Positions 1-27,140 of a stretch of DNA of 64,000 nucleotides are shown here, in pieces. The notes beneath the pieces are model-generated. The model did not search any database. It was not told where the DNA came from and saw nothing but the letters and a program-made list of their open reading frames with translations. Source of the DNA: Physcia stellaris (taxonomy: Eukaryota > Ascomycota > Lecanoromycetes > Caliciales > Physciaceae); assembly GCA_018902385.1 (NCBI GenBank), contig JABSSW010000054.1:1-64000 (forward strand). The letters run 5' to 3'. Numbering within the stretch: the first letter of the stretch is position 1; every line of letters begins with the position of its first letter. Made by a program: the position numbers and the translations under genes.

Positions 1-47
1 TGTTTTCGTTTAGTTAATCAATAATACGTTTATTCAAGCACGATTCA
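1..47 (+). repeat. End of the 5' LTR of the Gypsy element, truncated by the window
   Basis: Nearly identical to 6400-6446, differing only by transitions. Similarity stops after ATTCA at 47, which defines the inner LTR edge. Confidence 0.7.
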
Positions 48-3000
48 GCGATATTACAATAAATTTTCAATTTCTATCGCTCGTCGTGATACGCGAACGT
101 TCAAAAATAAAATTTCAAATCGATCAAATTCTTCGTGAGAGACAAACGACGAAAATCGTGTAATTACAAATCGAATTTACACGCAAACGACGAAATTTTC
201 GACGATAAAAAACGACGAAACGACGACGATTTTCTATTTTTTTTTTTTTTTTTCGAAATGATTCGCAATCATCATGAAACAATTTCATTCAATTCATCTC
301 GTCAAAATTTGAATATCGACGAGATACAAAAAAACGTTAAACAAATGCTGAACGAAATTCACGAAATCGATGAAAAATTCACGATTCGTTACAAATTTCG
401 TCAATTTTTTTTTATTTCAAACGTTGTGTCGAATCAAAACGACGATGTCACGCATTTTCTGAACATAAAAATTGTTCGTCAATTGAAATATTGAATTCAA
501 CATCATTTCGACGATTTTTTGAACGTGTTCAATGATTTACGCATCGATCGAAACAAATATTTAATCGTTTTAGAAAATTTTCACGAATTCGTCAAATTGT
601 TCAAAACTCAAAAAAAAAATCTATTCGATATCGATAATACTTTTGAGCAAATACGCGACAAACTTAAAACGTTCGAAAAAAAAAACGAATAATGAATCAA
701 TTCGTTGACAAACGTATTGAATATAACGATTTGATTAAATTGAATGAAATTCGTCGCTTTGAACGTGTTTTCAATTTCGATTCAAATAAAAATTCAAACA
801 ATATCGATGATGACGAAAAAAAATCTGTTGTTGACGATTCGATCGTTACAAACTTTATCAAATTTTCGAAAAAAAAACGCACGAACAAACATTCGAATTT
901 CGATAAATTCACGAACGATGTGAATTTTGATTGATTCACGTGAAAAATCAACGTTCACGATAAATTCACGATCAACAATGATTGATACGAAATTGTTCGT
1001 TTCATGATCACGACAATAATTGACTGAATTGAAAAAAAAACAATTAAACATATTCAATTTCGTCGATACAACAATTTGAATTATTTCGAAAATGAAATAA
1101 TGATAATCAATTTTTTCGAAAATATTTATGAAAATTCAAATTATCAACGCAACGTACGTCGAAAATATCGAAATTTGATCATGTTCGATATTCAAAATTT
1201 TCAATTTTTTTATTCGAATTTTCATCGTTTGAATATTCAAATCAATTTCGATCAATTCACGTTGATAAAAAATTTAATTGACAAATTCATCATGTCGTTA
1301 AAACAAATTTTGAACAATTCGTTTCGTTATCATTTTATTTTGCTCGCGTGAAAAAATGACATTCAACAAATGTACAACGATTTGATCAACATTCGAAAAA
1401 AAAAAACTCGAATTCGAATTCAAAAATCAATTTTAATGTTTTTTGAAAACGATTTTTGTTGTTTCGATTGCAATTTCGTTTGTCAAATCAATTACGTCGA
1501 CGTTTTTCGTCAAATTCAAAAACGATCATAAACATGATTCGATCATCGATCAATTGATTGTCACGAACAAATGTTTCACGTGTGAAAAACTCGATCACGA
1601 TTGAAAATTTTGTTTCAACGTCAACAAATTTCAAAAACGTCAATGACATAAATTACAAATACATCAATTGAATTTTGATATCGATTCGAGCGAATTTGAT
1701 TCGAAAAATTGACAATTCACGTCAAAAACGCGATTGATGAATGTTTAAAAAATTTTTTTATTCACGATGATAATATGTTTGACTTTTTCATCAAACGATT
1801 TTTAATCATCATTTGTACGTTATCATTCAACGATAATAAACATAAATTAAAAATTTTAATAAACATTGATGCAATCGATTATGCGTTCATTGATAAAAAA
1901 ATCGCGCAATTTGTGTGCAACATGTTGAACATGAAATTCGTATTTTTATTGAAATCGAAATCATTGATTGAATTCGATGATCATCATGTTTTTTTTATAA
2001 TTCACGCGATATATTTCAAATTGACGATAAAATTACATTTCGAATTGATCGCTTTTTTGTTAATCATTGATTTCGATAATCATTCGATAATTTTAAAAAA
2101 ATCGTGAATGAACAAACATGAAATTATATTGAACATGATTTACGATAAATTGATTTTTAAATCGTTCAAATGCAATTATCACGACAACATATTCAATCAA
2201 ACGATGCAAACTCGTCGTTTAAAAATTTTCAAATCAAATCGTCGATGAAATATATTTAATTGACGTCGCAATGCAAAATTATCGTCGAAAAATAATACAA
2301 AACACATAACGACGATAAAATTTCGATATATCATTTTGTTTCGTTTCAAAATCAAATTTTTATTTTTTATTGTTGAAAACGAATCAAATATAATCGATTC
2401 GAAATGTTTCGAATGTTCAATTCATTCAAAAATCGATATCGACGACGAGTCGTCAACAATCGAATTCGATAATTTAAAAATTGATATTACGATTGTTACG
2501 AAAACGACATTCGTCAAAAAAAAAAAACTGAAAAATCAACGTAATAAACGATGAAAAACGAAAAAACAACAATCAAAATTCTCGTTATTTTCAAAATTGA
2601 ATTTTGACGATTCGATGAATATCGCAATGATTGATGCAATTTTTTTTTGTTTGTTGATCGATGTCAAAAATCGAAAACAAAACGTTCAATGTTTTTTATT
2701 ACGATCAATCAAATCGATTTCGCGTTCAAAACATTACAAACGAATTTTGAATCGTTAAAAATCGTCGTCATGATCAAAAAAATTTTAAAACACGAACAAA
2801 TCAAATCGATATTCGAACGCATAATGAAAAAAATATCAAAATATTTTCGTCATTTATCAAAAATATTTGATTTTCAAAAAATCATCAAATTGTTTTTTCA
2901 TAAATCATACGATCATAAAATCGAATTGTTGAACAATAACAATTTTTTGTTTCGCAATCGAATGTATTTTCTATTCGAATTCAAATTCAAAAAATTGAAA

Positions 3001-6000
3001 AAATATTTGAAAAAAAATTTGCAAAAAAAATTTATCGTATTTAATCAAACGACATATGTTTCATTTGTTTTATTTGCGATCAAATTCAACGATCAATTAC
3101 GTTTGTGTGTGAATTATCGTCGATTCAATCACATTACGAAACGCAATCGATATTTCATTTCTTTGATTGAAAAAATTTTGATCAAAGTTCAAAATTGCAA
3201 ATATTTGATCAAATTGAATATTATATCAATTTTTAATAAATTTCGAATGAATGAAAAAAATGAAAAATTCATCACGTTCGTCATTTTTATGAAATCGTAC
3301 AAATATCGAGTATTATTTTTTGAATTAATCAACGATTTTGCAAATTGACAACATTACATGAATGATTTTTTGTTCAATTTTTTGAACGAATTTTGTCAAA
3401 TTTATTTGAATGACATATTCATTTACAACAAATTCAAAAAAAAACATATCGTGCACGTTCGAGCAATATTGAAAAAACTCAAAAAAATCGATTTACAAAT
3501 GAATATCGAGAAATGCGAATTTTTCAAAAAAAAATGATTTTTCTAAACGTTATATTCTCGATGAATGATTTTCGCATGAATTCAAAAAAAATACAAATTA
3601 TAATTGATTGAACACGTTTTATCAATTTCAAAAAAATACAAATTTTCGTGAATTTCGTCAATTTTTATCGACGTTTCATTCGTGATTTTTCGAAAAAAAT
3701 CAAAATTTTCATTCGAATGATCAAGAAATTCGTAAAATTCGAATGAATTACGAAAACAAAAAAAAATTTCAATTTATTTAAAAAAACGATGATCGAAATT
3801 TTCATATTTTGTCATTACGATAAAATCAAACAAATCATTTTGAAAATCGATTTTTCAAATTACGTTAATGCGAAAATGTTATCGCAATACGATGACGAAA
3901 AAATTTTGCATTTCGTTGTTTTTTACAATCGAAACATGATTTCAATCGAATGCAATTACGAAATTTATAACAAAAAATTATTGATTATCATTCGTTGTTT
4001 GAAACATTGACGTTCAAAATTCGAAAAAATTGACGAATCGATCAAAATTTTCATCGATCACAAAAATTTGAAAATTTTCATGATTTCGAAAAAACTAATT
4101 TCTCGTCAAATTCGTTGAACAAAAATTTTATCGAAATTCAATATCGTCATTCAATTTCAATCAGAAATTCAAAACGTTAAAACAAACGTTTTGACTCGCA
4201 TGTCGAATTCACGATTTAAAAACGATAACGATGAACGACATCAATATAAAAAACAAATATTGTTCATTTTAAAACGATTCGAAATTCATGTCGTCGAATT
4301 TAACGAATCAATTTACAAACGAATTTTCGTCGCAAACAAAACAAACGACGATTGTCGAACATATCGTGAAACATTCAATCAAAATTTCATTTTCGTGAAT
4401 GAAATCAATTTACGCGATTGTCAAAAAAAAAACGATGTTTTATATTACAAAAATCGATTATAAATGTTCGTCGATGTTCTTTTGTTCGTTAATTTTTTTA
4501 AAAAAATTCATGAATTTTTCGCATCGAATCACTTTGAATTTAATCGTATGAAAAATTTTTTACGTCGTGATTATTATTGATTCAACATGCGCAAAACAAT
4601 TCGTCGATACGTACGTAATTGTCACGAATGTCAACGAATTAAAATTTTCAAAAATCGTAAAAACGAATTATTCATTTTTTTGATCGTATTTTTGCAACGT
4701 TGAACGAATATATTCATTGATTTCATTACGAAATTATTTGACGTTCACGATCATAATGTCATTTGCACGATAATCGACAAATTTAATAAAAAACGTCATT
4801 ATGCATTTTGTACAACGAAAAACGAAAACACAAATGTTGAAATTACAACAAAAATACTCATTCAATACGTGTTTCGTATTCATGATTTGTTTTTTTTTAT
4901 AACATTTGATCGAGATTTTCAATTCGTGTTTTTCGTATGACAAATTTTTTGCAAAATTCTCGACATCAAATGTAAATTCTTCACGATTTTTCATTCAAAA
5001 ATTGATGATCAAATCGAAAAAATCAATCAAAACATCGAGAAACAATTGCGACAATATTGCAATTACATGCAAAACGATTAAAACGTTTAATTATTTATGA
5101 TCGAATTTGCAAACAACAACGCGATTTTTGCATTTATTGAATTGTCATCGTTTTTCGTCAACAAAGATTTTCATTCACGTATAAATTTTTCATCGAATTT
5201 TATTTCGTATGTCACGACAAAAAAACGATTGTTGATCGTTAAAACGAAAAATATCACAAATATCATGCAAAACATTTTCAATTACGTGCGAAATCACGTT
5301 GACGTAATTCAAAAACGCATGACAATTCAAATCAACAAACATCGCAAAATTGTGAAATACGTTGAAAAAAATTACGTTTTTTTAAATCGACGAAACATCA
5401 AAATCGCTAAATCATTTGACAAACTCGATGACAAAAAATTGAATTCGTTCAAAATGCTAAAATATCGAAACAATTTTTATCAATTCGAATTATTTGAAAC
5501 AATGCGAATTTACGATGTGTTTCATTGCTGACTTTTTCGCAAAAATTTTTGTGATTTTTTAGAAAATCAAATCAACGAATCATTCGATTTTGTTATAGTC
5601 AACGAAAATTTCGAATGAAAAATGAACGATATTTTGAAATCTCGATATTATTTCAATTATTTTCAATATCGTGTCAATTGATCAAATTGATTACATGATC
5701 GAACGTGATATTACGTCGATAACGATAAATTCGATAACGTTCGCGACGTGATAAAAAACTTTCATCGAAATCATTTTATCGTCGCAAATTCAAAATCGTT
5801 TAAATTAAATATTTTCGTCGTCGATATTCAAATTTTTTTTGCAAATCGTCGTCGTTTTCGAAAAAAAATCGTCGTTTTGATTTTTATTGAAATTACATTC
5901 GATTAAAATTTGAAAATTTCAAATTCGATGCATTCATTTACGTTTTCATTTTTTCGATTTTTTTTCGATTTTTAATTTCTATTATCGTTTCGATGTTGTT

Positions 6001-6228
6001 TACAATCAAAATTTACATCGCATAGAAAATTGAATCGTGTCAAAAACATTTTCAAAAATTGTTGTCAAATTTTATCGAACGTTGAAACGATAACAAAACA
6101 TCAAAAAATAAAATGATGATCGTGAAATTTTTGAATTTTGCAAACACTCAAATCAATCAACAAAATTTTCAAAATTTCGAAACAACAACGAATCGTCGAA
6201 ACGACGTTCGCGAAAAGAAAAAAATAAT

Positions 6229-6446
6229 GTTACGAATATGTTTGACAAATAAATTTGACAAATAAATAGTTGATATGATATGTGATCGAACAACGAATTA
6301 TGTTTTAATTTTACGTCGAAATTAACGTGATTTGAAATTTGACGTCGCACATTGTTTGCAATTTCAACATTTTGTATTTATTTGTTTTTGCAAACTTATT
6401 GTCTTCGTCTAGTTAATTAATAATACGTTTATTCAAACACGATTCA
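6229..6446 (+). repeat. 3' LTR of the fossil Gypsy element
   Basis: Starts TGTTACG and ends ATTCA, preceded by a purine-rich tract (about 6211-6228) as expected for a polypurine primer. Its last 47 bases match positions 1-47 with only a few transitions. The left boundary is inferred from the TG start and the purine tract; the right boundary is where similarity to the 5' LTR copy stops. Confidence 0.7.
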
Positions 6447-7950
6447 TGATAAACGATTTCAACATTTATATTCGATTTGACGAGCATGTCATTTTCATCA
6501 AAATTATCAATTTTTTCGAGTTTTGTATCAAAAATTGTACGCAAAAATTCGAAAATTGCGTTTTTTTTTTTACGTTTTGCGTCATCGTCACGAGTAATCG
6601 AATTTATTTTTTCGTCATCAAAATTTTCGTTTTTTTCGATTCGTGCATCAGAAATCGTATGCAAACATTCAAAAAGTACATTCATTATTATTTTTATTTT
6701 TACGAAGTCAACAATTTTTGCGAATTTCGCATCGTTCATTTTTATTTTTATTTCGAAATCTGATATTTTTTTTGATCATTTTTTTTATGCATTTGTTTAT
6801 TCGCAAATGATTCAAAAACGACGCAAAATTTTCGATCGCTGTATCACGAACACACGAATTCAAATTTTATTAATGTTTCGAAATGCAATTGATATCAACA
6901 AGCAAAAAAAACACAAAAAATTTATCATGTTCGAAAACACGAATTGCAAATGAAAAGCAAAATCAAACAAAAAACGAAAAAATTGATGAAACAAAAAAAA
7001 AAATTCGTTTAATCAAAAAACGAATTGAAAAATATATTTGTCGACGTTGCAAAAACAACACGAAATTCGACAACAACATCAAATTTCACGAACATATTCG
7101 TATTCGACACGCAAAAAAATCGAAATCAACGTTTGCTCAACAATTTGTTGAATTTGTTGTTTCATTTGTTTTCGAATCGATAATTTTTTCATCTTTTATC
7201 TCGTCATTTCAATCGATAATTTCGTCATTTTTTACGTCATCGAAATTAGTAGTCGCGTCATCAGCTATTTTTTCAAATATTTTTTCGATTTTCTCGTCGA
7301 TTGAAACATCAAAGAAATCGATATTTTGAACAAAAATTGTTTCACGATTCGTTGCATCGAAATTTTCACGTTTTTCGATTGCGACATTCAAATCGATGTG
7401 CAAATTTTTGAAAAATGCAAACATTGTTTGTTCGTCAATTTCGTTTCGTATTTTTTCATCGAAATTATCGAAATTTTATTTCATCGTGAACGATCTGTTT
7501 CGCATGTTCGTTGAGAAATCGAATTTGTTTGATTTGCAATCAAATCAAAACAAATCGTTGTTTTTCGCAATTTCGACAAATACAATTTCGTCAACAAATG
7601 TGATTTTATACAAAGTCGCATTACGTCATATTTTTATGCAATAATCACATTTGTTTTCAAATCAATCAAATTCGAAACATTTAAATCAACACATGTTCGT
7701 GAAAACGTTTCGCGCAAATTTTCGATTTCGCGATGATTTTCGATCTCATTTATTTTTTTTTCTTGTCGATTTTCAAAAATTTCTCGTTTTTTTTTTGTTT
7801 GCAAACATTGTCAAGAACGTTTCGTCATTTATTGATTTACTGATTGAGTTATGTTTAATGTTTCAAAAATTGAAAATAATGAAATATTCAAGAAAATGCG
7901 CTATTGACGTTTCGTTTCTTTTCATTCTGTTTTGAAAGAATATTGATCTT
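6447..7950 (+). other. AT-rich relic with one C2H2-finger-like remnant
   Basis: A decayed stretch next to the Gypsy 3' LTR. Around 7036-7110 the plus strand still encodes a finger-like pattern, C-x2-C followed by H-x4-H in an HEHIRIRHAKK-type context. Similar fingers occur in repeated fungal ORFs that I associate with transposon-rich regions. A weakly related segment follows near 7500-7710. No intact gene remains, and codon content is dominated by AT-biased mutation. Whether it belonged to the Gypsy element, another transposon or a repeated host gene cannot be settled here. Confidence 0.4.
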
Positions 7951-10641
7951 TTCTCGAAAAAATCACTATTTTGAAAAAATTAGCATGTTGTTTGTTTTGC
8001 TCGTTCGTTTTTTCTATTAATCGTTGATCGATTTGAGAAAACTAAAAGTTGTTGTTGTTGTTTTAAAAAATTCGATGTTTCGTCTTTTTCGCTTTCTGAT
8101 CTGAAAAAACTTTAAAATTGTTGTATGCTTTGTTTATTATTTTATTGTTTAACGAATATGATAAAAACTTATCTTTGTTGTGACTTCGTTTTGATTTAAC
8201 ACGATTGATAATCGTCTTTATTTTCTATTACTCTTTGAGATTTCAGTCGCTCGATAAATACGAAAAGAAAAAAGCGAGTACAATCGCTAGAATGAACGAG
8301 AAACAGTCTATCAGACAATACAATTTCGAAAAAGTGTATTGATCAAAATGTTCACGTTCGAATAGTATCGTTTCGAGAAAGCGTATTATGCAATTATTAC
8401 ACATTCGATCTTGCAGAGCAAGAACTCGATCAGAAAAAACTGAAAATATCTGATTTTTTCGCATACTAATCGATTTGATTCTCTGACAGATTTTAGTCAG
8501 ATCAAAAAAGCTCGATTCTGCATTCTTTGCATCGATGCATGTTCGTCGCATTCGATGCATCACTTTTTTTATCGATTTCTCGATCATTTTCAGTTTTTGA
8601 CATTGCATCGACATATTTAATGAATTTTCTACAGTCAAATTACATAGAAATCGATTCATTGATGTCGCAAAAAATATCTGAAAACTTTGAGATTCACAAT
8701 GATGTTATCAAATCATGATGTGATTTGCATTCTCGTCAATATCGCAATACTCAAACAAAAGATATTTGCTTCATGATGTATCGTCTATTCAATTTCAAAT
8801 ATCAATTCTCGCATCGATGTTTCATCTCATGAAAATTCAGAACACGATCGCAATTTTTCAGATGCTCGATCGCACGTTTTACAATTCGATCTTACGTCAT
8901 ATCTGAAGTCATGAATTTCGATTCGTTCGTTATTGCAATCTTCGCATCGATACATGACTCGACATTGAAAAAGTTTGCTCGAAAGTTTCAAACAATGCAT
9001 CGTTGAAGAAATTACATCGTTGAAGAAACTTCAGAACTCATCGCTTTGAAAAAACAGAAATCATTTCGCTGAAAAAGCTTGCACGAAAATTTCAAACTGA
9101 ATTCATTAAAATACAAAGCAAATGACACAAACGATTGCTGTGAAAAAGTCTTGAAAATACAATCTTCGCAAATGTGTTGCAATCAAAATTCAATTGATAT
9201 AATTTGACGAAAGAAGAATTAATGCGTTCTTGTTGAAATTAATATCTTGACATTCGCATACTTTTTGTGCTTTCATCTGCATGTAACTTATTTAAAAAAA
9301 CGAAATTCAAAGCAATAGAATGATAATCATTCATGATTTTTTCAATAACAATTAATTTATTTAGAATTAGAATTGCAAAAAGTCGAATAAAAATTTCAAT
9401 TTCAAATTTTGTACATTTAGCATCATCATCGATATAATCAATGAACTATTTCTACTTCAACAATATTCGCGATGATTGCTGTTTTCTGAAAACTCTCAAT
9501 AGATTAGATTGATTTCGATATTTTTGCGTGAAATGACTCAAATGCATTCTCGATGAATTTTCGTGATCGTCATGATGTTTATCAAACAGTTCATCGAAAA
9601 ATCTGTCGAACGAGCTGTTTTTAATACGAGTAATAAATATCTATTTCGTATTTTAAAATATGTAGCTATTAGTATTGCGAACTTCGTAAAATCTCTACTC
9701 TTTAGCGCGTAATTACGAAATAATTATCGAAAAGCAAATTGTCACTTTACGTAAAGTTCTATTTATAGTATAAAGACGTAAAATGCTAAGTAAATAAATC
9801 AAAATATGATGTTTTGATTGAGTGTGAAAATTGACAAAAAAAAACAATTTTCTAACTTTGAACGAAAAAAGATATTTAGCTTTTGATGTGTTTCACATTG
9901 AAACAACAAGTATTTTTTTTTTTTCAATTTTGAAAAACACTTTTATATTTTCAAACATATAATTGCAATTTTATCATTCAAATCATGCATCGACGCGAAG
10001 AATGCGAAAATCAACGATTTGATTTTTATCGAATTACGTCATATTTTTCTTATAAAAAAATGTAAAAAATGCAAAAATAATCGATCAATTGATTTTTATC
10101 AAAATGAAATATTGAAACAATAAATATTGCATCGAAACAGATGTTTTGCGCAAATTGCTTGATATAATTTTAACTAATTCTAAAATTACGCTACGTAAAG
10201 CAAATTGATCTGTTTTACGTAATTATCGTAAAGTTTCGACTTTTCGCGTAATTCAGTATCATTAGTAGTTATCGAACACGTGCATTCGAAAAACGCACGT
10301 TCTCAAACGAGTCGAAAAAAACGTTTAGATCTGAACTAAAATTAGTACAGTCGTTTTAAGAAAGATTGACGATCGTTGTTTCGAGTCGTGTAGTCGAAAC
10401 GTCGTAAAACTCGAATTTCTTTTCTACAAAATGAAAGTTTGATCGAACTAGTCAGAAATTTGAATAGCTGAGACAAAACGATCGAGAAATTCGAATTTCA
10501 AATTTCTCATCACACATTCAAATCTGATGCATTTCAGAATTCAAACATTGAACATGCTATAAACAATACACAACGTTATTTAATTGATTTAGTTTGACAT
10601 ATAATTATAAAACATCACAATTACTATTGATTGTATGAGTT
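7951..10641. other. AT-rich intergenic DNA, no gene recognised
   Basis: No ORF with recognisable protein similarity on either strand and no tRNA or rRNA signature seen. It is less extremely biased than the retroelement blocks: CpT and ApG dinucleotides are still present. It probably consists of older or less mutated non-coding sequence. Confidence 0.5.
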
Positions 10642-10785
10642 TGTAAAACTAGATGATCAATCAGAAATCGTCAAGAACTTAATAACTAATGCGCACTTCA
10701 ATGACATTAGAAACTAAAAATCATGTAAATTAGCATTTCATAAAACAGTATGCAATCAATGATTTATTTATTCAAAAGTTTTACA
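10642..10785 (+). repeat. 5' LTR of Copia A
   Basis: 144 bp. Begins TGTAAAACT and ends AGTTTTACA (perfect 9-bp inverted termini). It pairs with 15612-15755; about 15 differences, all transitions. Confidence 0.92.
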
Positions 10786-13700
10786 ATTATGAGTTCGAAT
10801 CACGTTTAATTGTTGCATTGATACGTGATTTATTTGATTATCAATATTTTCAACATTCGATTGTTTCGACAAATTAACACGAAAAATCAAAACATCGCGA
10901 AAGCATTTTTGTGTTTACATTTTTTTACAAACAACAATCAAAAATTTCTTTTTATTTATTCGCTCGTTCAACACGATGACGAATACGAAACGAAAATTCA
11001 AATTGAATTTTTTCAAAAATTGAAACGCGTGATTTTCGATCGTACGAATCAAAATCACAAAATATTCGATTTGAAATTTCATCGATTCATTCAACGATAC
11101 TAAATCAATAAAGAAAATTGAGTTTCTAGAATTCAATTTTGACACACAACAAAATGCGAATTTCAGCGAAAAACATGCTCGATACAAAATAACGACATCG
11201 AGATACAAAAAAAAATTTCAAAATTGAAAAAAACAAAAAAATTTCATGACAAAAATAATCGATCACATTTACGATACAACAACGATTACAAATTTCAATT
11301 TTATTCAAATCGTTGAAATTCATTCATGAATCGTTTTTCGTGTTTTCAAAGCACGTTTTGCATTCATCGATTCGACTAGAAATTTGAAATTGAAACAAAA
11401 ATACAATCGCATGATCAAAAATTCATTCAATCGTCAAAACATCGATGTTTGACTAGACGATTATTTGAAAATGTTGATTTTCGTTAAACAAACGAAAATT
11501 GTTGAAATCATCGATAACAAACGAATTTATCGTGATTTTTTACACGCAATCGACAAAATCGCATCTATTTTCGTTGAAATACAACTATTTCAACTAAACA
11601 TTGTAACGAATCACGAAATTCAACTTTTCATTTTCATCGAAATTTTTCGACATCACATGCGCATGAAGAAAATTCGAAAAAAAAAACGATATTCAATTCG
11701 ACATTCGTTATTGACGAATGCAATCACACAAATCATCGAAATTATTTTGACATTTCGTCATTTCGAAATCAAAATCAGTTTCGAGATTTTTGCATTTGCG
11801 AAAAAAAACATTTTTACGACGATTGTTTCTATCTCAACGAGAAAATACGTTCAAATGATTTCAAATTGAAATCAAAAATCGTGATTAAAATAAACGAAAC
11901 GAAAAAAAATTCAAAAAAAAAAAAACAAATAAAACAAAACATCAAACGAGTTGACGAAAAACGTCAGAAAAAAAACGATAACAAGAACACAAAAATCGAA
12001 ATAAAATTTTTCGTCGTCATTCACGTCAATGTTATAAAATCGTTTACAAACGACTCGTTTTCGTCAAACTATTTTTTTCGTTCGTCGTGAATTATGAATT
12101 ACGATTTCGACATTCACGTGATCAACAACACAATGAAACAACGTTTTCAAAAAAAACGAAATTGCATAAACGAATCGAAAATTATGTTCGACATGAAATC
12201 ATTTTTTATTTTAACATATGATCGAATGCGTATCAACGTCGATACGTTCACAAAAAAGAAATTAATGAAATTTTTAAACGTCAATTACGTATCAAATTTC
12301 ATGATCAATATCGTCGTCGAAAACATTTTCGCAAACAAGAAATTGCATTTTGATACAATTCATGAACATTTGCACAGAAACGATGCATCGATCGTTTTCG
12401 TGTCACGAATAAAAACACATTACGTTTTCGAAAATAATAAATTTGAAAAAATGAACGTTTTCGCAATTATCGTGCGACAAAAATCTATTTTAAAATGACA
12501 TCAATTTTTCGTTCATGCAAATAATGACGTCATACAACATTTACAAGAAACAGTTGAAAAAATGAAACTCATCAACAAAAATAAAATGTCACTAATTAAC
12601 AAATGCGAAAAATGTGTTTTTTTCAAAACACATCGAATTGTATTCAAATTTTCTGTAAAATCAAAAATTTCGAACAAATCGTTTTATCGTATTACATACG
12701 ATTTCATCGATATGACAACGATTTTGAACAAACACAAATGAATATCACACGTGACATGTTTCGAAACAGATTTTCACATGATATACACGCACGAAAACAA
12801 AAAACAAATCACGAAAATATTTATTCGAATCATTCACATCATCGAAATCAAATACAACGACAAAATGATATTTGTACGTTTTGACGACGAACGCGCGTTA
12901 AACATTGTCTAAAATGATTATTGTGCATTCAAAAACATTACACATGAATTTTCGATCGTTGATATTTCAGCACAAAACGATCACAACGAACGATTAAATG
13001 ACATATTATTGATCAAATCACGAACAATGAAATTCGAAGCAAATCTATTTGTTTATTTATAATCGTGAATCAATGAAATCGCTGACTACATCATGAATCG
13101 TACATTTTTCAAAAAGCATGAATGAAAAACATCGTTCGAAATGATTATCGACAAAAAGTCGAATTTTGCTCACATCGTTCAATATGAAACAAAAACATAT
13201 TTTCTGAATAAAAATATTTCGAAGAAGAAAAAGATGAAAATCAAAACACACATCGATTTTTTTGTAAATTATGACAACATCAACATCTTTTTTATTTAAA
13301 TTTCTAATCAACGAAAAATTATACGTACACGTGATGTCACATTCAACGAAAACTCACGTTATCGTTCTAACGAAATAAATTTAATTCAACTCGTTAACGA
13401 GTTTTTTTTGATTAACGATACGTTTAACATATCGCGAAACGATTTCACGAAAATAATGAACATCGAATCAAACAACGACGAAAATGTATGAAAATTAGCA
13501 TTTACAGAGTTTATTATCGATCGCGATGCAAAAAAATTTCACAAACAAACGATTGAAAACGATTTTGAATCAAAATATTTATTTTCATTTGTTTCATTTT
13601 CGTCAAGAAATGAGAACACGTCAAATACGTCTGATTTTTCGTATTTTTCGTCATTTGTCGTTGCAAAAACAATAAAAAAACTATTTTCGTTTGCATCGTC

Positions 13701-15611
13701 GTTGAAAAAAAAAAATCGAAACATTAAACGAAAACAACGATTGACGAAATCAACATTCAGTTTGAAAAAATCACTCGTATTCGCAAATCAAATTCGCTTC
13801 GAAATTTCAATTATTATATTGTTTTGAAAAACGCATTCGCAAAAAAAATGCGTTCATTTTACGAAACATTCATGATTTCATTAACGATAAAAACGAAATC
13901 GCATCGTGACAATTTTTTCGTCGAATCAAAATTTTATCATCAGATGTTCAAACATGTTGAAATCGTCGATTTTTTACGAATCATTGACGTGAAAATCAAG
14001 ACATTACAATCAAAACAAATTTGAAAAAAGATTTCATGAAGTCACGTCAAACAAACAAAAAAGATTTCTATATTTATCACATGAATATTCAAATACAAAT
14101 TCGACAACGAGAAATATTTGATAAAACACAAGATTCGATTGTGTGTTCGAGAAAATTTTCAACAAATTGAACAAAATGTCTATGTTGTTACATTAATTAT
14201 TAAAATTTTTCGAACATTAATGATCATAATAATCGTTTTCGATTTTAATATTCGTCAATATGACGCGATCAATGCATTCGTTAACAACGATATCGATAAA
14301 TCAATTTATTGTAAATCGTTTGACGACTGAAAGAAAACAAACAATGTGCTATTTTTTTTATCGAAAGCATTTTATGATTTGAAACAATTTTCAACATTAT
14401 GATATCGACATTTGTCGATTACTTTTAACAATTTAAATTCAGAACAGATGTTCGACATTGAGTGTTTATTCATGAACGACTACATGATTGTTTTTTTTTT
14501 CGTGAATGATATAGTCGTCATGTATTATTCACAATATTTCAAGCAAATCGACGTTTTCGAAAACAAACTTTTCGAAACATATGAAATGAAAAACATCGAC
14601 GAAATCGAATGATTTCTCAATATTCGCATTACACGCGATAAGAAACAACAAACAACGTCGTTTTGTCAAAACAATTACATCGACAAACTCATCAGCAAGT
14701 TCAACATTGACATGATTAAAAAAAAATCAAAATCATTTATACTCATTCATATTTCGATGATAAAGAATGAGAATAATGTTATTTCACAAAAAATTCATAT
14801 GTATCAGCAAAAAATCGACTCAATCAATTTCGTTGCAACAACAATTCGATCAAATGTAATCGTTGCAATTTCGTTATTATTTGAATATTTTACGAATTCA
14901 TTTAAACATCATGCGAAACAAACGATTCGAACGCTAAAATATTTAGCACACATCAAATATTACGTCATTGTTTACAAGAATCAAACAAATTATACAATCA
15001 TCATTTTTTTGATTTCGTCAGACGCGTCATTTGCAAACGATTTAGATATTCGTCAAAATTCAAATGAATATTGTTTTATGTTTTTCGACGATTTCATCGA
15101 TTGAAAAATCACAAAGCAAAAAACAATCACAATTAATTTCATCGAAATCGAATTGTTGATCATGTCGATGACGATCAACATCAAAATGTGATGAAATCGT
15201 TTTTTTGAATCAATACAAATGAACGTGAAAAAACTCATTCATATTCAATGCGATAATCGTCAAATTATACGAACGTTTACTATGTCAACGATCAAATTAA
15301 TCATTAAATTACGTCATGTCGATATACATCGTCATTAATTACGTCAAAAAATGCAAAAAAGCACGATCAACATTCAATGAATTTTTACAACGAATATTTT
15401 GATCGATGATTTCATCAAAATCTTATCATTTCAGAAGCAAAAAACATTCGTGAAACTGATTGATTTAGAATTTATTTCGATATCAGAATCGAAAAAGAAC
15501 AACGAATTCGATCAATCAAAGATCGAATAGATCGCATCATGAATCACATCGAAAAATGAATAAAACATCAAAAATAAAACGAAATATCAAATATTTTCTT
15601 CTAAAAAGATG

Positions 15612-15755
15612 TGTAAAACTAAATGATCAATCAGAAATCGTCAAAAGCTTAATAATTAATGCGCATTTCAATAACATTAGAGACTAGAAATCATGTAAAT
15701 TAGCATTTCATAGAACAGTATGCAATCAATGACTTATCTATTTAGAAATCTTACA
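15612..15755 (+). repeat. 3' LTR of Copia A
   Basis: 144 bp, same start and end as the 5' copy apart from transitions. Followed immediately by the GAGTT target duplication at 15756-15760. Confidence 0.92.
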
Positions 15756-15760
15756 GAGTT

Positions 15761-16658
15761 TCAATAATTGTTTCGATGTATTGTTGTGAAAACACAATGT
15801 CGTAAATGTTTCTGTTTATTTCGTAGAAATGCTTCGTCTGAAAAAAATTTTAGCGCAAAAATTTCAGCAATATATCAACAACATGCACATCACAACAATA
15901 CAACGAATTACATTATACAAATTCGTGTATTGATTGTATGTGTTATATATATGATATTTTGATAGATATTTATCGATACAGTGACGTTGCGTCGTGTTGA
16001 TATTGCTGTTCTATGATGGGCTCCGAAGTGCATCAGATTTGGGTGTGTGGTGAGGAACCTGAGGTTCGGGTTTCCCGACCGCCAACCTTTTTTAAAACGA
16101 CTGTACCTAATAAGCGAGCCATGGTACCTCAGTGACTTCGCTGGGGACCTGTCAAAAAACTTGGAAGCCCCAACCTCCGGACTTCGCCCGACTCTTCGTT
16201 CGGGGTAAGGTATCATGGAGTCTAGATTCGCGAAAACTCACCCATCCATGGACAGCAGATTGCTCAAAGGATCGTGTGGATTGTAGAACTATTTGTTCCA
16301 AGCCTATACGAGCACTGGGAATATTTTACCAACCCTGGGCCTCAGAGATGGATCCGTCGTATCCGAGATCAATTCCAGACTCGAGGCTGGCGATGGGGCA
16401 GATTTGTACCTCGTACGTCCTATGGTCTTGGAAAAGAAGGTGGCTGAATGCCAAGACGCGGTGGGATGTCAGGCTGAATTTCGGCATGTCTTCTCACTGT
16501 GTAGGCGTTCCTTGTTAGAGATCGGGGATAAGGCCTGTTAAGATTTGCTGATCGGACCTCCACCCAACAACGATGTAATGGCTTCGATGTCAGTCTCGCT
16601 TTCATCTTTACTCCGTCGTGGTTCACGACTAGAGAAGATTGAAAGCTTGACGACTTTG
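15761..16658 (+). other. Host DNA between two Copia insertions, turning GC-rich at about 15990
   Basis: Positions 15761-15990 are AT-rich and hold no gene. From about 16000 base composition becomes normal. In the plus frame from about 16293 to 16541 a coding-like stretch reads through to TAA, and the same frame continues 16542-16652 with a plausible protein-like sequence before Copia B interrupts it. After Copia B, another frame (21907-22010) remains open with coding-like residues. These may be pieces of one decayed host gene, but I do not recognise the family and offer no function. Confidence 0.35.
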
Positions 16659-16811
16659 TGTTACAAATATGTAGAGTGCAACGTGCTTATATTCATAATA
16701 ATATTATTTACCGTACATGTGATGAATGTGAATTATTGTACAGAGTTTGCACGCTAGTCTATAATAGAATAACGTCTTGACATTGCTTTTGATGATGAGT
16801 TTATTTCAACA
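16659..16811 (-). repeat. Left (3') LTR of Copia B
   Basis: 153 bp, TGTTACA...CAACA. It differs from 21754-21906 at about 11 positions, all transitions. Confidence 0.9.
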
Positions 16812-19800
16812 CTTTTTCTCGAATTTGCAAAAATATAAAATCATGATGTTTAATTTATTTCGAGCATGTCGATAAATCGTTGATATTTGAACGAAAATAA
16901 AAATTTGATGAAATCGTCGATTGACATGATGTCGATCGTTATGTATTTGAATTCAATGCGATTTTTTTTAATTTCGTTTTTTACATAATGATATACGATA
17001 TCGACGTGTTTGATGCGATCATGATGTATTGAATTTTCATTGAATGCTTTGACGTTTTGATTGTCAATATTTATCAATATTTTGACGTAATTGTTCGATT
17101 GATTTTGAGTTCGTAAATCAACGAATAATTGTCTGAATCAAATAATTTTTTTGACGACGAATGATATGATCATATATTCGACGACGCAAATAAACGTGAT
17201 CACGATGAATTGAAATTTTGACATTCAATTTATCGAATCGTCGTTTAATAAAAACAAATATGTTTCGATGAATTTTTTGAAAATTTTGTCACGAATTCAA
17301 TCTGCATCGCAGTATGTCTCGATATTTAATTTTTTGTTGAAATTATCGTCGTAAATTATGCAAAAATCGATCGTGAAATTGAAATAAATTATAACACGTT
17401 TGATTGTTTTGATATGATTAGAATTGAAATTTTGAGCAAATCGATTGATTATGAAAATCGCATTCGTTACATTTGATTTAATTTTTATCATTGCAAATAT
17501 AATTGAATTCATCATTGTTTGATATTGTTTGATATTTTGATCGATGATTTGATTAACGTTGAAAATTGAATCAAATGACTTTTTCATGAATGTTCGAACT
17601 GATTTCGCATTTTGTAAATCGAATTTTTTAACGACGCATTGAATATATGTTTTTTGATTAAAACGAATTATGTGCATTTCGCGATTTTTGAAAATGATTA
17701 TATCAAAATAGAAATTTATTGATTCAAAATCAATCATGTCGAAAACGTTATTGAATTCTGTTTTTGTTTTGTTAATCATGATTTTATTGAAAATAATGAT
17801 TTTGATATCATCGATTCATGTAATAATGATAAAATTTTTGAAATCAACATTCGTGACGAATATGCTTTGATTCGCGTCGAGAAAATTGAGAACTAATTTT
17901 TGTAAAAGAAATTCGAACAGACGTTTATATCAAAACTTGAATGATTATTTCAAATTATACAATGTTTTGTTCAATTTGCAAATAGTTTTGTCATTGTCAC
18001 ATTCAATCGAATATTTAACGTAAATATTTGAATCAATGAATTCGTATAAAAACGCAATTTTCACGTTCATTTGCTCAATTTTCAGATTCAGAAAAACGAC
18101 AACGACGAATAGAATTCGAAAAATCATTGATTTGACGACGAAAACAAAAATTTGATCAAAATCAATGTCGTATTGTTGTAAAAAATTTTTGACGCATCAT
18201 TTAATTTTGTATCGTATCACAACGTCATCGACATTGCGTTTGAGTTTGTAAATTCATTTATCGTTCAACGATTTTCTTTCATCGAACGTGAAATTTACTA
18301 AATTTCAAATGTGATTTTTCGATAAAAAATCGAATTCTTTTCTCATTGCTTTTAATCATTATGAGAAATGAAAATTTCGTGCGACGTCGTTGTAATTATT
18401 TAATTTTTTCTCGTCGATTGTCAACATTGTTATGAATTTTTCGAGCGAAAAAACGTCGATGCTTTCGACGTAATCGATCAACAATGAAACGAAATTGATC
18501 GTATCAAATTCAACGTTTGCAATTGAAATTGATTGAAAATCAACAATGTTGTCGAACAAAACAATTAAATCATTTGAATTTGAATTTCAATTTGCGAACA
18601 ACTCACGCATTGTTAAATGAAACATCGTGAAATTGACAGAAATTATGACATTGTAAACGATAAAATTCATAAAAAAATTTATTCGAATTGTTTTTCTGTT
18701 TGAGCGCATTGTAACGTATTTTTGTGAAATTTTTTGAAAATTTTTTTGTTGTTGTGACGTCATTGATTTTTGTATGATAATATTTGAAAATTTGATTTTG
18801 ATATGTGATCGAATTTCAATGTTTTGAAAAATTTAAAATTGAATTTTTTGTTTTTTTGCAATGAATTCAATGTGAATAACAAAAAAATTCATCATGATTG
18901 AATCAACAATTAATTCGATAAAATTTTCATCGAATTCGATGTCAATCTTTGATGTTGATTTGTGATCATAAATATCGAAATTTTTGACGCGTTCGATTTT
19001 CTGATTAATCGATATGTAAATTCGATAAATAATGTCATCGTTATATTCGATGAGAATTTTCTTTTCGACGTTCGATTTAAAATGATTTTTGATTTTTTTG
19101 TTGATGACGACGTAAACGATTGATTCGAATGAATACATGTTCGTCAATTTCGAAAATTGTTCGTAGATATTTTCGAACGATGATTGATTTTTCAAATACG
19201 AAACTGAACGTCGATTTTTGATATACGTTATTGCATGTGTGATGTTTGATCACAAAAAATTCGATATGTTTCTCGTCAATAGCGTTATTTTGATCATGAT
19301 GATAAAAATGCGTTGATGTGTTTCGATTACATCATTGACGTTTTGAGCATTTGTTGAAATTGAATTGAATTCAATGTTTTGATTGTCAAAATAGTTGATT
19401 GATTGCGTGTTGCGAAATTCGTTGTCATAATTTGTACGTACGATTTTGACGTCAATATCGAATTGACGTTTGATTCAGTTGATGTATTTAATAAAACATT
19501 GTAATCATTCGTGTTTGTTTTTGACGATATATATTTTCGTTCAACGTGATTTGTCATCGATGATATTAATGTAATAACGTTCATTTTCAAAATTTTCGAT
19601 CGTTATTGATATTAAATCAGTGTGAATAATATGAAACGTTTTTTCGACATGATGAATATTTTTTTTATTCGATTTTTTTTTTGTTTTAATTAGTTTGCAA
19701 ACATCGCAATGATTATTTTTGCAATCGTTTTGATAAAAATGATTCAATTTTTTTAAATATTGACGTAATAAAAAAAAGCTCATGTGATTCAAATTTCGAT

Positions 19801-21753
19801 GTCATACGATAAACGACAATGATGATGTTGTTGACAATGCAATCATTTGATGTGATTGCAATTTTAAAACGTATAATTCGTTGTTTTGCAAAAAAACATA
19901 TTCGATTGATTTGTTTTGATGTTTGAAAATATGATTTTCAATGTTTCAATAAACGTTTTGTTTTTCGAATGTTGATATTGACAGCAAATTTGCTGACGAA
20001 TTTGACATGTAAAAAATTGACAAATCAATGAATTGATCATTTGCATTGTTGTAAAAAAAAACGAACAATAATTTGATTATTTTTTTTTTTCAACAGTGAA
20101 ACGAATTTTGTTTGCAATTACAACATGCTCGATGTGAAACATGAAAAAATGTATAAAATTTCGATTTTTGCACACGTGAATGTTGACGTTCGAATTTGTG
20201 TATCACAACATATTGTTGATTGAATGACTAATGAACAAAATTTGTTTTCAAAATTCAATCAACGACGTTGATTGTTATTGTGAATTTTGAATTTTTTTCA
20301 AAGTTTTGTCGTATGAATGATCAAACATGTTTTTGTCAATTCATTTTTTGAAAACGTTTTTTGAGTGATTATAATAGCATTTTTCAAAATCATGTTTAAT
20401 GAAATCGTTGTTTATGCATTTTTGATTAATGCAAAAAGAATTGATGTATTCAAATTTTGATGTATTGAAACGAATACGTTTAAATTTTTCGAAACGATCA
20501 ACGATCAATGCAATTGAATCTGATTTTGCTATCGTATCGATGATAACTTTAACGAAATTCAAAAAAAAAATTTCGATTTCGATGAGATTTGTGTTTTCGA
20601 AAATTCACTCGTCACGTTGACGAATCACGAAATAATTGAAATGAATTAATTTGTGCATTTTGAACAACAAAATATTTTGACAAAATACGTCGACAGTGAG
20701 TTTCGAGTCAATTTTTTCGATGATCAATTGATTGTGTAATGATTCGACGATTTTGATGTAAAATTCGACGCTCGCTAAAATGACAAATCGATCAATGAAA
20801 TCGAAAATGATATCGACGAAAAAAACGAAAATATTCTTTTTGAAACGTTTTGTTATTTTTGTTCAATAAATCAATGATGTTGAATTCGCTATGACAATGA
20901 TAAAAAAACGATAATTGACGTTCACTGCATTGAACAAATAAAAAAAAAATTTATTCAAATTTCGTTCGTGTTTTTCGACGACGATAATGAAATTCGTGAA
21001 TTTGATTTTCGTTTTTGCATCGATGAAATTTCAATCGATATTTTTGTCGTGTAAAAACTCGACGATAAACATTGATTTTATTGATAAATTGATTGTTCAT
21101 TCAACGTGATTGACTCGAAAATCGTTTTTGACGTCGATTTTTCAATTGAAATATTGTTTTGATTTTGAAATGAAAACGACAAAATTGTGAATGATGTTTG
21201 ACGTAATCATTGTGATATTTGAATTTAAAAATTTGAATCGTATAAATGAAAAAAAAAAAATGAAACGTATGTGACTCGTGAAATCGTGTAAAACGTGTGA
21301 ATTTCATGTCGTATTTGTTTTTTTTTTCATTTTGTAACAAATGAATTCGAAACATCGATTCGAAACAATGACGAATTCATTGAATCATCGAATCGTGTAT
21401 GTAAAATTTCGTGTTTTTTGAAAACGTTTTCATCGAAATCGAATGATCGATCGTACGTTCGAATTTGACGTTCGTTTAAACGATAAATGACGTTTTCATC
21501 GATCGACGTCGATGTTGATTTTTTGAATTTTTGAAAAATTAAATGACGATCGTTAAAATAAACAATATGCATTTTATTGACGACATTAAATGACGATAAA
21601 CTCGTTGTGAATTCAATTTGATGTTTTCGAATTTAATCGTCGTTTAATTCATCAAAGATTTCTCGATCGATGCATGAAATCAACGTTTGAACGTTGTAAA
21701 ATAGTATGAATCGATTCGAATGATGTTTGACAAACACTGTCGAACTCATAATT

Positions 21754-21906
21754 TGTTACAAATATGTAAAATGCAACGTGCTTATATTCATAATAATACT
21801 ATTTATCGTACATGTGATGGATGTGGATTATTGTACAGAGTTTGCACGCTAGTCTATAATAGAATAACGTCTTGGCATTGCTTTTGGTGGTGAGTTTACT
21901 CCAACA
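21754..21906 (-). repeat. Right (5') LTR of Copia B
   Basis: 153 bp, TGTTACA...CAACA, followed directly by CTTTG. It is the less mutated of the two LTR copies and retains more C and G. Confidence 0.9.
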
Positions 21907-21968
21907 CTTTGTGAGCTAGTCGCTCTAATTCTACATACCTTAGAGAACCACCTCACGCTTGAGCCAGA

Positions 21969-23420
21969 ATGTCAAGCATTGGTAAGATCTCGGCCAACCT
22001 CATCTCAGCAGTGAGCGAAAATACATTGGCTCTTGCAAGTGCCAAATTCGACTTCTCTCTGATTAAAGTAGAAGCTCCAGCGGAATTCTTCGGCCTCGGA
22101 GAAGCTCTTTCTGTGCGGCGTCGTAATGAAGCCGAAGATGGGACGTCTCACAGGACTGCTAGGAGACTCGCCGCTTTGTTCGAGCAGCTAGTGCCGTCAA
22201 CGCCCAAACTGATAACCGCCTACGGGCTTCGGTCTTCCGAGATTATCAGGACGCCTGGAATCAATCCTAAAACTTCTCCTGTTTATGTCCCCTTCGAGAC
22301 TTTTGTTGGAGCTGACGGTACTGCGATGTGGGCCGCAGCTACCTCAAGGATTCCAGCTCTTGGGGTGTATCTACTTGCATGCCTTTAGGCAAGGGCATGG
22401 GACGCTAAAGAAGCAATTTCGGTCTGGGTCGAGCTCGTGGAGAATCGACGGGCGGAGATCGAAGAGGGGTCCAAGAACAATCACGCAGTATCAGACTCGA
22501 GCCGTATGAGTGTACATCAAACAATTTCAAGGGACGAACTGGCTCGGTGGGACTCGAGTGCACGTGCATGGCTCAGGAGCGCCGATCAAGCAAAGGTGAA
22601 AGAGCAAACTCAATTGATACTCATTATCAAGAACTCTCAGCTACCTTTCAATGGCGGTTCCACAACATACAGAAAGGTTGTTGAAGCATGGCAGCAGGCG
22701 ATGACTTGTCTGGAAAGTCTGTTGTGTGGTAGACCGCAAGCGATTTCGAACAAATCAGTCCTACTCGCTTTCTCAGCTTGGCATCTATACCCAAACCTCA
22801 TCTGGCTCGGAAGCGATATCCGAAACGTAAATTTCCATGATCCTTACGTGGACCCAAGAGGCACGGGGACAATAGCTCTTGAGCCCGGATCTGCGACAGC
22901 CACTCGGAGGACGAGCTGGTCTCTGGCACTTTCTCATCTTCGCTACTATGGCAGACCTGTCACAGTCGAAAGTTCGACGGACTTTTCGAGGGTAAACATC
23001 CAGCAACTGCACATTGTTGCACTGGGCAGCATAACATACCTTTGGAGGAGGATCAGCCAGCGAGACCTCCCTACAGTAATACAATGGTTCATACAAGTAT
23101 GGTGTTTCTTAAGTCAAAATGCCACGGAAGGAGCCCTGAAAGGGCTGGACTGGCTAAAATATTTGGCACAGGCAGCAAAGGTCGTCCAGATTTCCATCGA
23201 TTGCAACGAGCCCAGCGCCCTTCAACTTTTGCGCTATGGGCAGCGGCGTGGAAAGCATTTCCTTTCAACTCCGCATTTCGATATCAAACCATTCTTCGGT
23301 CTAGCTTATGATAGTATCCTCCATCCGGCTGTTTATTCTCTTTCAGGCATGGCGATACAAATTGATCAAGGCTTGATAGCGCTACTTCACCAAATCATCA
23401 GCGGCGAGATGGATTGGTGA
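21969..23420 (+). pseudogene. Conserved fungal hypothetical gene with one internal stop
   Basis: ATG at 21969 opens a frame that runs to TAG at 22386-22388 and then continues in exactly the same frame to 23420, giving about 483 codons with normal fungal codon use. The sequence resembles a large family of uncharacterised proteins in Sordariomycetes and Leotiomycetes (recalled, not searched); those I recall are longer, so the 3' end may be truncated. No GT...AG pair that would remove the internal stop is evident, so it reads as one nonsense change in an otherwise intact sequence. It lies 62 bp right of the Copia B target duplication, so its promoter was probably separated from it by that insertion. 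Function unknown. Alternatives are a recent pseudogene, a sequencing error, or a restart at a downstream ATG (about 22506). Confidence 0.6.
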
Positions 23421-26276: not shown

Positions 26277-26681
26277 ATGGCGCCAATCAACTTTCTCGCT
26301 CTACGTGTGAACAAGATCTACGATGAGGTCTTTGGAAATCAGGCCGATCACTCGCACAACTGGACCACTAGCGGTCACAACCGTTATGCCAATGTGTTCG
26401 ACCCTGTCAATAACCACACTTGGAGCTCTTTCCAGGACGGAGAGGGAAATCATGTCAATGGTAAGCTCTACCTTGAATGTGAGCTTGGGAGTGAGAATGA
26501 ACTAATAGTCTCAGATCAAGATATGATGGGTCCATCACAAGGCCAGGGTGTCAATTCTTCGACTTCGACTTTCCAATTTGGTCCGGAGTTTGCACCACCT
26601 GTATCAGGTGTCCCTCAGACATATATGCCTCAACATCGTCCCATAGCTCCAGCTCGCCCCAGGAAGCGCCGTACGTATTAA
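26277..26681 (+). CDS. Small uncharacterised protein, two exons
   Basis: ATG at 26277 opens a short exon to 26460, followed by a clean 54-nt intron (26461-26514: GTAAGC, AACTAAT branch site, CTCAG) and a second exon to TAA at 26681, giving about 116 aa. The intron length is a multiple of three without a stop, so intron retention would still be translated. The N-terminal half is rich in Asn, His and Asp; the C-terminus is Pro/Arg-rich and ends in a basic RPRKRRTY tail. No known domain recognised. A diverged copy of its exon end plus intron lies just upstream (26145-26243), and a Copia integrase fragment begins almost directly downstream, so the gene may itself be debris of a rearranged locus. 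Confidence 0.4.
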   Translation: MAPINFLALRVNKIYDEVFGNQADHSHNWTTSGHNRYANVFDPVNNHTWSSFQDGEGNHVNGKLYLECELGSENELIVSDQDMMGPSQGQGVNSSTSTFQFGPEFAPPVSGVPQTYMPQHRPIAPARPRKRRTY

Positions 26682-26685
26682 CGAT

Positions 26686-27140
26686 ACTAACAAGGATAAG
26701 GTGCCCCTAACTAACAAATGCGAAGAGTGTGCACTTTCCAAAGCACATAGAATCGTATCCAAATCCCCTGAAAAGTCGGAAACCTCAGACAAGCCGTTTT
26801 ATCGTATTACCTACGATCTCATTGATATGACAACGGCATTGAACAAGCACAAGTGGATATCGCACGTGGCATGCTCCGAAACAGACTTCCACATGGTATA
26901 CACTCACGAGAGCAAAGGACAGGCCACGGAGGTGCTTTATTCGGGCCATCCACACCATCGAAACAAGATACAAAGGCAAGGTAGTATTCGTACGCCCTGA
27001 CGGCGAACGTGCACTAGGCACCCAATGGGGTAAATACTGCGCACTCAAAGGCATTACATCTGAACCCTCAGCCGTTGATACTCCAGCACAAAACGGCCAC
27101 AGTGAACGACTAGGTGGTCGTTCACGTAAAGAAATTATCA
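26686..27140 (+). mobile_element. Copia integrase fragment, lightly mutated
   Basis: About 450 bp matching the integrase region of Copia A at about 12585-13010 base for base over long stretches, but with normal GC content. Includes the region equivalent to the start of the integrase core (RITYDLIDM-type) and the later NGHSER-type region. Only this slice of the element is present and no LTRs adjoin it. It is a fossil fragment with few breaks, valuable as a comparator for the heavily mutated copy. Confidence 0.85.

Follow-up and report, generated by a model that had tools for sequence, protein, structure and literature searches.

C-to-T mutation before pyrimidines in repeated DNA of Physcia stellaris: a probable variant of repeat-induced point mutation

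The stretch of DNA considered here (the window) comprises the 64,000 nucleotides at positions 1 to 64,000 of contig JABSSW010000054.1 in the Physcia stellaris (Ascomycota; Lecanoromycetes) assembly GCA_018902385.1, and its AT-rich blocks have lost nearly all cytosines that precede a pyrimidine (CpY) on either strand, those that precede a purine (CpR) being largely spared. The original prediction, made from the letters of positions 1–21906, took this for a mutation resembling repeat-induced point mutation (RIP) that acts at CpY, a proposal supported below by polarised copies of an integrase segment, a ribosomal DNA (rDNA) pseudogene, samples from the rest of the genome, and two repeat boundaries. 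The process is probably RIP, or a very close analogue of it, with an inverted preference for the 3′ base in the order CpC > CpT >> CpA > CpG. Its context, its abruptness, its action on both strands, its wide occurrence in the genome, and its confinement to repeats at two boundaries were observed directly.

Dinucleotide composition of the window and the genome

The pattern was tested by setting observed over expected dinucleotide frequencies in positions 1–21906 against those of a gene core within the window (29501–54672), and the depletion of CpC and CpT was confirmed as real and very strong. CC (0.09), GG (0.13), CT (0.31), AG (0.29), and TA (0.43) are all depleted, CA and TG (1.28 each) and CG (2.96) stand above expectation, and the same eight dinucleotides range from 0.68 to 1.15 in the core. 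The predicted contrast with the core, namely that CpC, CpT, ApG, and GpG are depleted in the AT-rich blocks and CpA is kept, is thus what the counts return, and CpA and TpG, far from being lost as strongly as CpC and CpT, are not depleted. The example first singled out, 2641–2760, likewise contains CC, CT, AG, and GG at counts of 0, 0, 0, and 0, with CA (8) and CG (9) common.

Over 1–15600, where the expectation was derived from 200 mononucleotide shuffles, neither CC (355 expected) nor GG (244 expected) occurs even once, CT (227 observed, 803 expected) and AG (211 observed, 750 expected) are depleted about 3.5-fold, TA is reduced to 840 (2044 expected), and CA (1173 observed, 900 expected) and CG (951 observed, 294 expected) are in excess. 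The earliest CC or GG in the window starts at 16018, leaving 1–16017 free of both. A second gap, without a start of either, runs between 16712 and 21818; gaps of this kind do not exceed 77 bases in the gene core. Counted as surviving sites on both strands, 1–15600 retains CpC at 0/2300, CpT at 438/5793, CpA at 1962/3642, and CpG at 1902/3864, and together with the interior of a second mutated element (16816–21753, 0/742) not one CpC survives at 3042 sites.

Since CC and CT are pyrimidine pairs, damage of the kind caused by ultraviolet (UV) light at such pairs might come to mind, as might a general drift towards AT in old transposons; both together are scarcely credible. TpC is kept before purines, C/(C+T) being 0.625 in TCA and 0.498 in TCG against 0.020 in TCC, and UV-like dimers were rejected on this ground. 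Against drift stand the almost unchanged A/T sites and the ending of the mutation at the tested repeat edges, both documented below.

The CpY mutation is not local; it is widespread in the genome, and its restriction to this one locus is contradicted both by genome samples and by integrase copies elsewhere. Twenty stretches of 10 kb, picked by place and not at random, were divided into 400 bins of 500 bp, of which 58 have a GC content below 0.36, 9 are intermediate, and 333 lie above 0.42, the 58 low-GC bins sitting in 6 of the 20 stretches. Pooled C/(C+T) in the low-GC bins is 0.51 before A, 0.02 before C, 0.47 before G, and 0.06 before T, compared with 0.60, 0.44, 0.43, and 0.50, respectively, in the high-GC bins. 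CpY survival alone separates the two classes, with a maximum of 0.284 in the low-GC bins (58/58 bins) and a minimum of 0.343 in the high-GC bins.

Mutation spectrum, strands and repeat edges

The features of the window on which the following argument draws are:
1–16017: mutated block with no CC or GG on either strand, from dinucleotide counts
10642–15755, plus strand: CpY-mutated Copia-type long terminal repeat (LTR) element, with terminal direct repeats at 10642–10785 and 15612–15755 (90%)
12574–12996, plus strand: mutated integrase segment within the 10642–15755 element, aligned to the GC-normal 26689–27112
14067–14711, plus strand: RVT_2 profile match in the 10642–15755 element
15756–16105: repeated unit of ~350 bp with copies elsewhere in the genome, mutated except for about the last 100 bp beside the island
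16106–16658: single-copy island, unmutated, from sequence search and C survival
16659–21910, minus strand: CpY-mutated Copia-type LTR element, with terminal direct repeats at 16659–16815 and 21754–21910 (93%)
17585–18283, minus strand: RVT_2 profile match in the 16659–21910 element
21911–22600: right flank, unmutated and with no match elsewhere, from sequence search and C survival
26689–27112, plus strand: GC-normal integrase segment serving as yardstick, with GC-normal relatives L025–L027
58001–59400: partly CpY-mutated block around and between 60-nt inverted repeats at 58175–58234 and 59457–59516, a candidate DNA-transposon-like element

Aligned to the yardstick, the mutated integrase segment of the window shows C-to-T changes at 23/26 CpC, 13/19 CpT, 3/45 CpA, and 3/23 CpG sites, and G-to-A changes at 22/22 GpG, 22/26 ApG, 1/20 TpG, and 2/23 CpG sites. 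Outside the window, a genome search listed another 27 integrase matches, and the 20 examined comprise 17 mutated and 3 GC-normal copies; with the window copy (W) the mutated set numbers 18, on 15 contigs, and with the yardstick the GC-normal reference numbers four. Put differently, 18 of the 21 copies besides the yardstick are mutated, and three are unmutated, as is the yardstick itself. Changes were polarised only in the 368 columns that are uniform across the four GC-normal copies. Across the 18 copies, C-to-T change reached 298/304 at CpC, 168/197 at CpT, and 46/627 at CpA, and G-to-A change 358/360 at GpG, 272/323 at ApG, and 36/304 at TpG; CpG, taken over both strands, was the least mutated context (7/646). 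The totals, 1096/1184 at CpY against 89/1577 at CpR, give an odds ratio of 208, for which no probability is quoted because the integrase copies share descent. A/T sites changed in only 23/3348 cells and C/G transversions were seen in 14/3247. A noisier, unpolarised comparison of the copies gives the same picture (CpC 398/461, CpT 241/337, CpA 97/802, CpG 51/414). C-to-T and G-to-A transitions thus dominate on both strands, and the two terminal repeats of the 10642–15755 element likewise differ by transitions alone, at 15 positions. By its mode of action the process works like RIP, but the CpA preference of the canonical type is absent, CpA and TpG together being changed at 82/931 sites as against 1096/1184 for CpY.

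An independent check is offered by rDNA, because the rRNA sequence is known beforehand. L045 (C41 44399–47552) is a mutated 18S-5.8S-28S pseudogene and the only 5.8S match among the best 39 of 2644 candidates. It was counted against Rfam alignments over large-subunit model positions 1–453 and 636–726, the whole 5.8S, and small-subunit positions 1491–1761. Conserved (upper-case) columns are changed at 15/18 CpC, 9/15 CpT, 18/22 GpG, and 13/29 ApG sites, and at 1/19 CpA, 2/33 TpG, and 0/27 (C) and 3/24 (G) CpG sites; in all columns used, the corresponding counts are 55/84, 26/39, 57/83, and 35/60 for CpY, and 7/38, 5/58, and 10/67 (C) and 16/66 (G) for CpR. An intrinsically AT-rich composition of the elements was rejected, since the unmutated form can be read from the GC-normal copies and the rRNA models. 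Neither the 5.8S search, within those best 39 candidates, nor a DNA search with L045 brought up an intact rDNA unit; each returned L045 alone, although the absence of such a unit is not proven thereby. Eight 5S matches appear unmutated by composition among the best 47 of 1658 candidates, a selection that favours intact copies.

The mutation was abrupt. In eight of the 18 integrase copies (W, L029, L030, L032, L033, L038, L040, and L043), 56–64 of 65–66 CpY sites are mutated with A/T sites changed at 0/187, and L044 carries 65/66 mutated CpY sites with 0/186 A/T changes; two copies diverge more at A/T sites, L028 (7/187) and L037 (6/170). Such saturation beside unchanged A/T sites points to abrupt hypermutation and not to slow decay, in which changes of other kinds should also have accumulated. 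A rival account, in which DIM-2 or RID methylates CpY in repeats and ordinary slow deamination of 5-methylcytosine does the rest with no dedicated mutator, is thereby rendered rather improbable. It would produce C-to-T change in repeats on both strands, a DIM-2-like gene is present, and residual CpR transitions exist; yet the eight saturated copies would require a rate gap far beyond ordinary 5-methylcytosine deamination, and slow decay of the CpG type was rejected since CpG is the least mutated site.

Strand symmetry bears on a further alternative, that an AID/APOBEC-type cytosine deaminase acted on DNA or on reverse-transcribed copies. Retroelements do show C-to-T hypermutation here, but the unpolarised totals over both strands (C-to-T 787 and G-to-A 808, versus T-to-C 52 and A-to-G 73) led to the rejection of one-strand cDNA editing, since both strands are equally mutated. 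The rDNA copy and the block bounded by inverted repeats (58001–59400, surviving CpC 24/206, CpT 98/489, CpA 193/387, CpG 124/317) are mutated too, and the context that matters here lies 3′ of the mutated C, whereas APOBEC enzymes recognise the base on its 5′ side. A genome search with APOBEC_N gave no match, and the same search was silent in every control genome, so that absence is not demonstrated by it; on the remaining evidence such a deaminase is very unlikely.

The edges of the repeats are matched by the edges of the mutation. With 15601–17000 as the query (best 40 of 149 candidates), copies elsewhere cover 15756–16105 and 16659–17000 and extend a few bases at most into the island, and a query of 16120–16650 has one candidate, itself, making the island single-copy by search. 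C survival in the island (16106–16658) is 0.60, 0.45, 0.48, and 0.50 before A, C, G, and T. To its left, CpY survival runs through 0.20, 0.13, and 0.07 over 15701–16000 and then rises to 0.45 in 16001–16100, a normal level for the 100 bp of repeat next to the island. At the other boundary (query 21501–22600, best 40 of 58 candidates), the copies end at ~21906–21913, with no match beyond ~21913 among the matches listed, and C survival in 21907–22600 is 0.62, 0.41, 0.51, and 0.56 in the same order. Across 17 copies of this element end, CpY survival stays at 0.02–0.05 inside and reaches ~0.1 from 21741 and 0.32–0.35 from 21821, the rise spanning about the last 85 bp. At both boundaries tested in the window, then, the mutation is confined to the repeat. 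The originally predicted span of 1–21906 holds as mutated DNA, and its right limit falls at the repeat end (~21906), but it has to be broken at the unmutated island. RIP spares repeats below ~400 bp; the unit at 15756–16105 is mutated at a length of ~350 bp but abuts a long repeat, and the 5S matches noted above appear unmutated.

Among the matches listed, copies of the 15756–16105 unit lie on C1, C2, C5, C7, C8, C20, C35, C47, and C98; elsewhere the unit takes the form of inverted pairs overlapping by ~20–170 bp, and it is perhaps a foldback element. The GC-normal copy within 26400–27400 of the window looks as if its integrase piece were an insertion, judged against C46 133633–134172, which matches both integrase flanks with only ~70 bp between them.

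The coding consequences follow the same context. In the 137 RVT_2 matches obtained from the best 150 of 165 candidates, premature stops comprise 401 TGA, 101 TAA, and 3 TAG, and four matches are without stops; the excess of TGA is as expected if the change strikes the last G of TGG and spares CAA and CAG. When change at all sites was simulated in a host frame of 1599 codons, CpY yielded 6 stops, all of them TGA from TGG, and CpA yielded 124, so that, for this one frame, the coding outcome also differs from that of a CpA-directed process by far fewer stops. Consensus errors would hardly produce this stop-codon pattern, the saturation of both strands, or the differences in load from copy to copy (46/66 CpY sites in L028, up to 65/66 in others). 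Modified cytosines can mislead long-read base callers, which lends a sequencing or assembly artefact some initial plausibility, but we regard it as most improbable.

Candidate agent and comparison with known systems

A PF00145 search of the genome gave four matches at three genes, on C3, C5, and C6. The C3 gene is DIM-2-like, matching PDB 9bap/9baq, labelled DNA (cytosine-5-)-methyltransferase, at 2e-181, which we take to be Neurospora DIM-2. The genes on C6 and C5 are RID-like, both containing PPCQ, with EET in motif VI of the former and EQT in that of the latter. RID/Masc1 proteins are recognised by PCQ in motif IV and by EQT or EET in place of ENV in motif VI (PMC6709928), and in these motif features, the only ones compared, both genes agree with that rule. 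Their target-recognition regions are short, 74 and 80 residues in the two genes between motifs VIII and IX with limits set by eye, against ~80 in RID/Masc1. The two proteins share 39% identity over 170 catalytic residues and 34% over 149 N-terminal residues. Pfam detected no BAH domain in either, nor in the DIM-2-like gene where one is expected, and this feature is therefore non-discriminating. A MAT alpha-box gene with an open frame is present. A Fung_rhodopsin match, together with the RID-like and DIM-2-like genes, gives the genome a Pezizomycotina-like character.

We infer that a methyltransferase is responsible for the CpY mutation, and the agent is probably an enzyme of the RID type. The process turns C into T on either strand where a pyrimidine follows, most readily in CpC and next in CpT, and it touches CpA rarely and CpG almost never; its targets are repeated DNA (LTR elements, the rDNA copy, and perhaps the element with terminal inverted repeats), on which it runs to near-saturation and fades towards the repeat edge. 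A RID/Masc1-type cytosine methyltransferase acting around mating, either the EET-type paralog on C6 or the EQT-type paralog on C5, may use its short target-recognition region to sense which base follows the target C. Motif VI reads EQT in N. crassa, Ascobolus, and Podospora but EET in B. cinerea and P. destructans (PMC6709928). Two RID-like proteins are recorded for B. cinerea B05.10 and T4 and for S. sclerotiorum, with mixed CpA and CpT signatures (PMC4352252, Table 2 as we read it). Any tie between EET and a preference for CpY is a guess, as those species still mutate CpA.

Canonical RIP in N. crassa follows the order CpA > CpT > CpG > CpC (PMC5496416), which upholds the original prediction that the Neurospora preference for CpA is the reverse of the pattern here: its least favoured site, CpC, is the most favoured in the P. 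stellaris window. Common to both are near-saturating C-to-T change of repeats on both strands, mutated rDNA pseudogene copies (PMC5555474), and, in P. stellaris, the presence of RID-like and DIM-2-like genes. In Trichoderma reesei, CpA and CpG come ahead of CpT, with CpC last (PMC5496416). CpT signatures have been described in Botrytis cinerea, Sclerotinia sclerotiorum, and Magnaporthe oryzae (PMC4352252), in Colletotrichum truncatum (PMC6180176), and in Anisogramma anomala (PMC10998396), and van Wyk et al. noted the dominance of CpT/ApG in alignments of RIP-capable fungi (PMC7882544). B. cinerea shares with P. stellaris CpT as a substrate, an EET-type RID (PMC6709928, Fig 3 legend), and two RID-like proteins (PMC4352252); in B. 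cinerea, S. sclerotiorum, and M. oryzae, however, CpT is accompanied by a CpA signature, whereas here CpA is spared and CpC leads. TpA/ApT in C. truncatum is 0.93–1.68 and averages 1.14 in A. anomala, as against 0.42 here.

C-to-T change outside CpA is likewise shared with several other fungi. Microbotryum and Aspergillus show a CpG bias (PMC2621366), in contrast to the 7/646 at CpG here. In Rhizoctonia solani AG8, CpC is the densest class of raw single-nucleotide polymorphisms (Table 2), although the bias is described there as one towards CpG (PMC4014442), and genes and repeats are mutated alike there. Monilinia has CpC-to-TpT double changes beside CpA, which stays its classical target (PMC8959702). 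Ascobolus methylation induced premeiotically (MIP), effected by Masc1, is also repeat-directed and involves the same enzyme family (PMC7862722, PMC6709928), but it gives methylation only, and the outcome here is mutation. The process in P. stellaris would accordingly appear, from sequence comparison, to be a variant of RIP and not canonical RIP, the nearest precedents among the cited papers being the CpT-rich signatures beside CpA, the remark on CpT/ApG dominance, the CpC class of R. solani AG8, and the CpC-to-TpT changes of Monilinia.

Several observations weigh against an interpretation as RIP with an inverted preference, or limit its reach. CpA is not immune in the polarised copies (CpA 46/627, TpG 36/304), CpR change reaches 14 of 88 sites in one integrase copy, and CpA survival falls as low as 0.33 in a very AT-rich sampled bin that is also without CpY. 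Pairwise comparison of the 17 saturated element ends (including ~20 bp of flank) gives 2500 CpY transitions, 1698 CpR transitions, and 1479 transversions, which argues against CpR immunity over longer time. The test of confinement to repeats covers two boundaries. The 101 TAA stops go beyond what CpY change alone would create and may reflect either a low rate at CpA or read-through of non-coding sequence. Copia copies that are GC-normal and unmutated, and that keep open frames around RVT_2 of 1257 (C8), 1501 (C42), and 1624 (C7) codons, lie at C8 ~901–903 kb, C42 ~397–399 kb, and C7 ~888–891 kb with many mutated relatives beside them, and the integrase pieces on C7 and C8 are identical at 489/492 positions; either these intact copies are more recent arrivals than the last effective cycle, or the system, weak or lost at present, no longer hits all repeats.

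RIP indices and wider implications

Positions 1–21906 have a TpA/ApT of 0.42, a (CpA+TpG)/(ApC+GpT) of 1.36, and a composite index of −0.94, and the gene core has a TpA/ApT of 0.67, a substrate index of 1.30, and a composite of −0.63. As these values for 1–21906 fall outside the cut-offs quoted in PMC8959702 (product >1.1, substrate <0.75, composite ≥0), the block is scored as RIP-negative, its composite lying even below that of the core; the warning in the original prediction that indices built on CpA loss or TpA gain would miss the pattern was well placed. Screens of this design can overlook heavily mutated genomes. We would suggest, with somewhat less than even confidence, that there is a clade of fungi in which RIP operates through an EET-type RID paralog reading a 3′ pyrimidine, CpC being fully removed and CpA and CpG largely spared, and whose genomes are scored as RIP-free by the indices; if so, RIP is more widespread among fungi than is now estimated. 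The literature consulted, which did not include Clutterbuck 2011 (a main survey of RIP contexts), contained no report of CpC-led RIP with CpA spared. The natural occurrence of an opposite preference, together with two RID-like paralogs that differ in motif VI, renders its determinant testable by swaps.

Outside the mutated blocks, positions 43588–43809 of the window contain two tandem 111-nt copies (81%) within a long open reading frame that has a RanBP1 domain.

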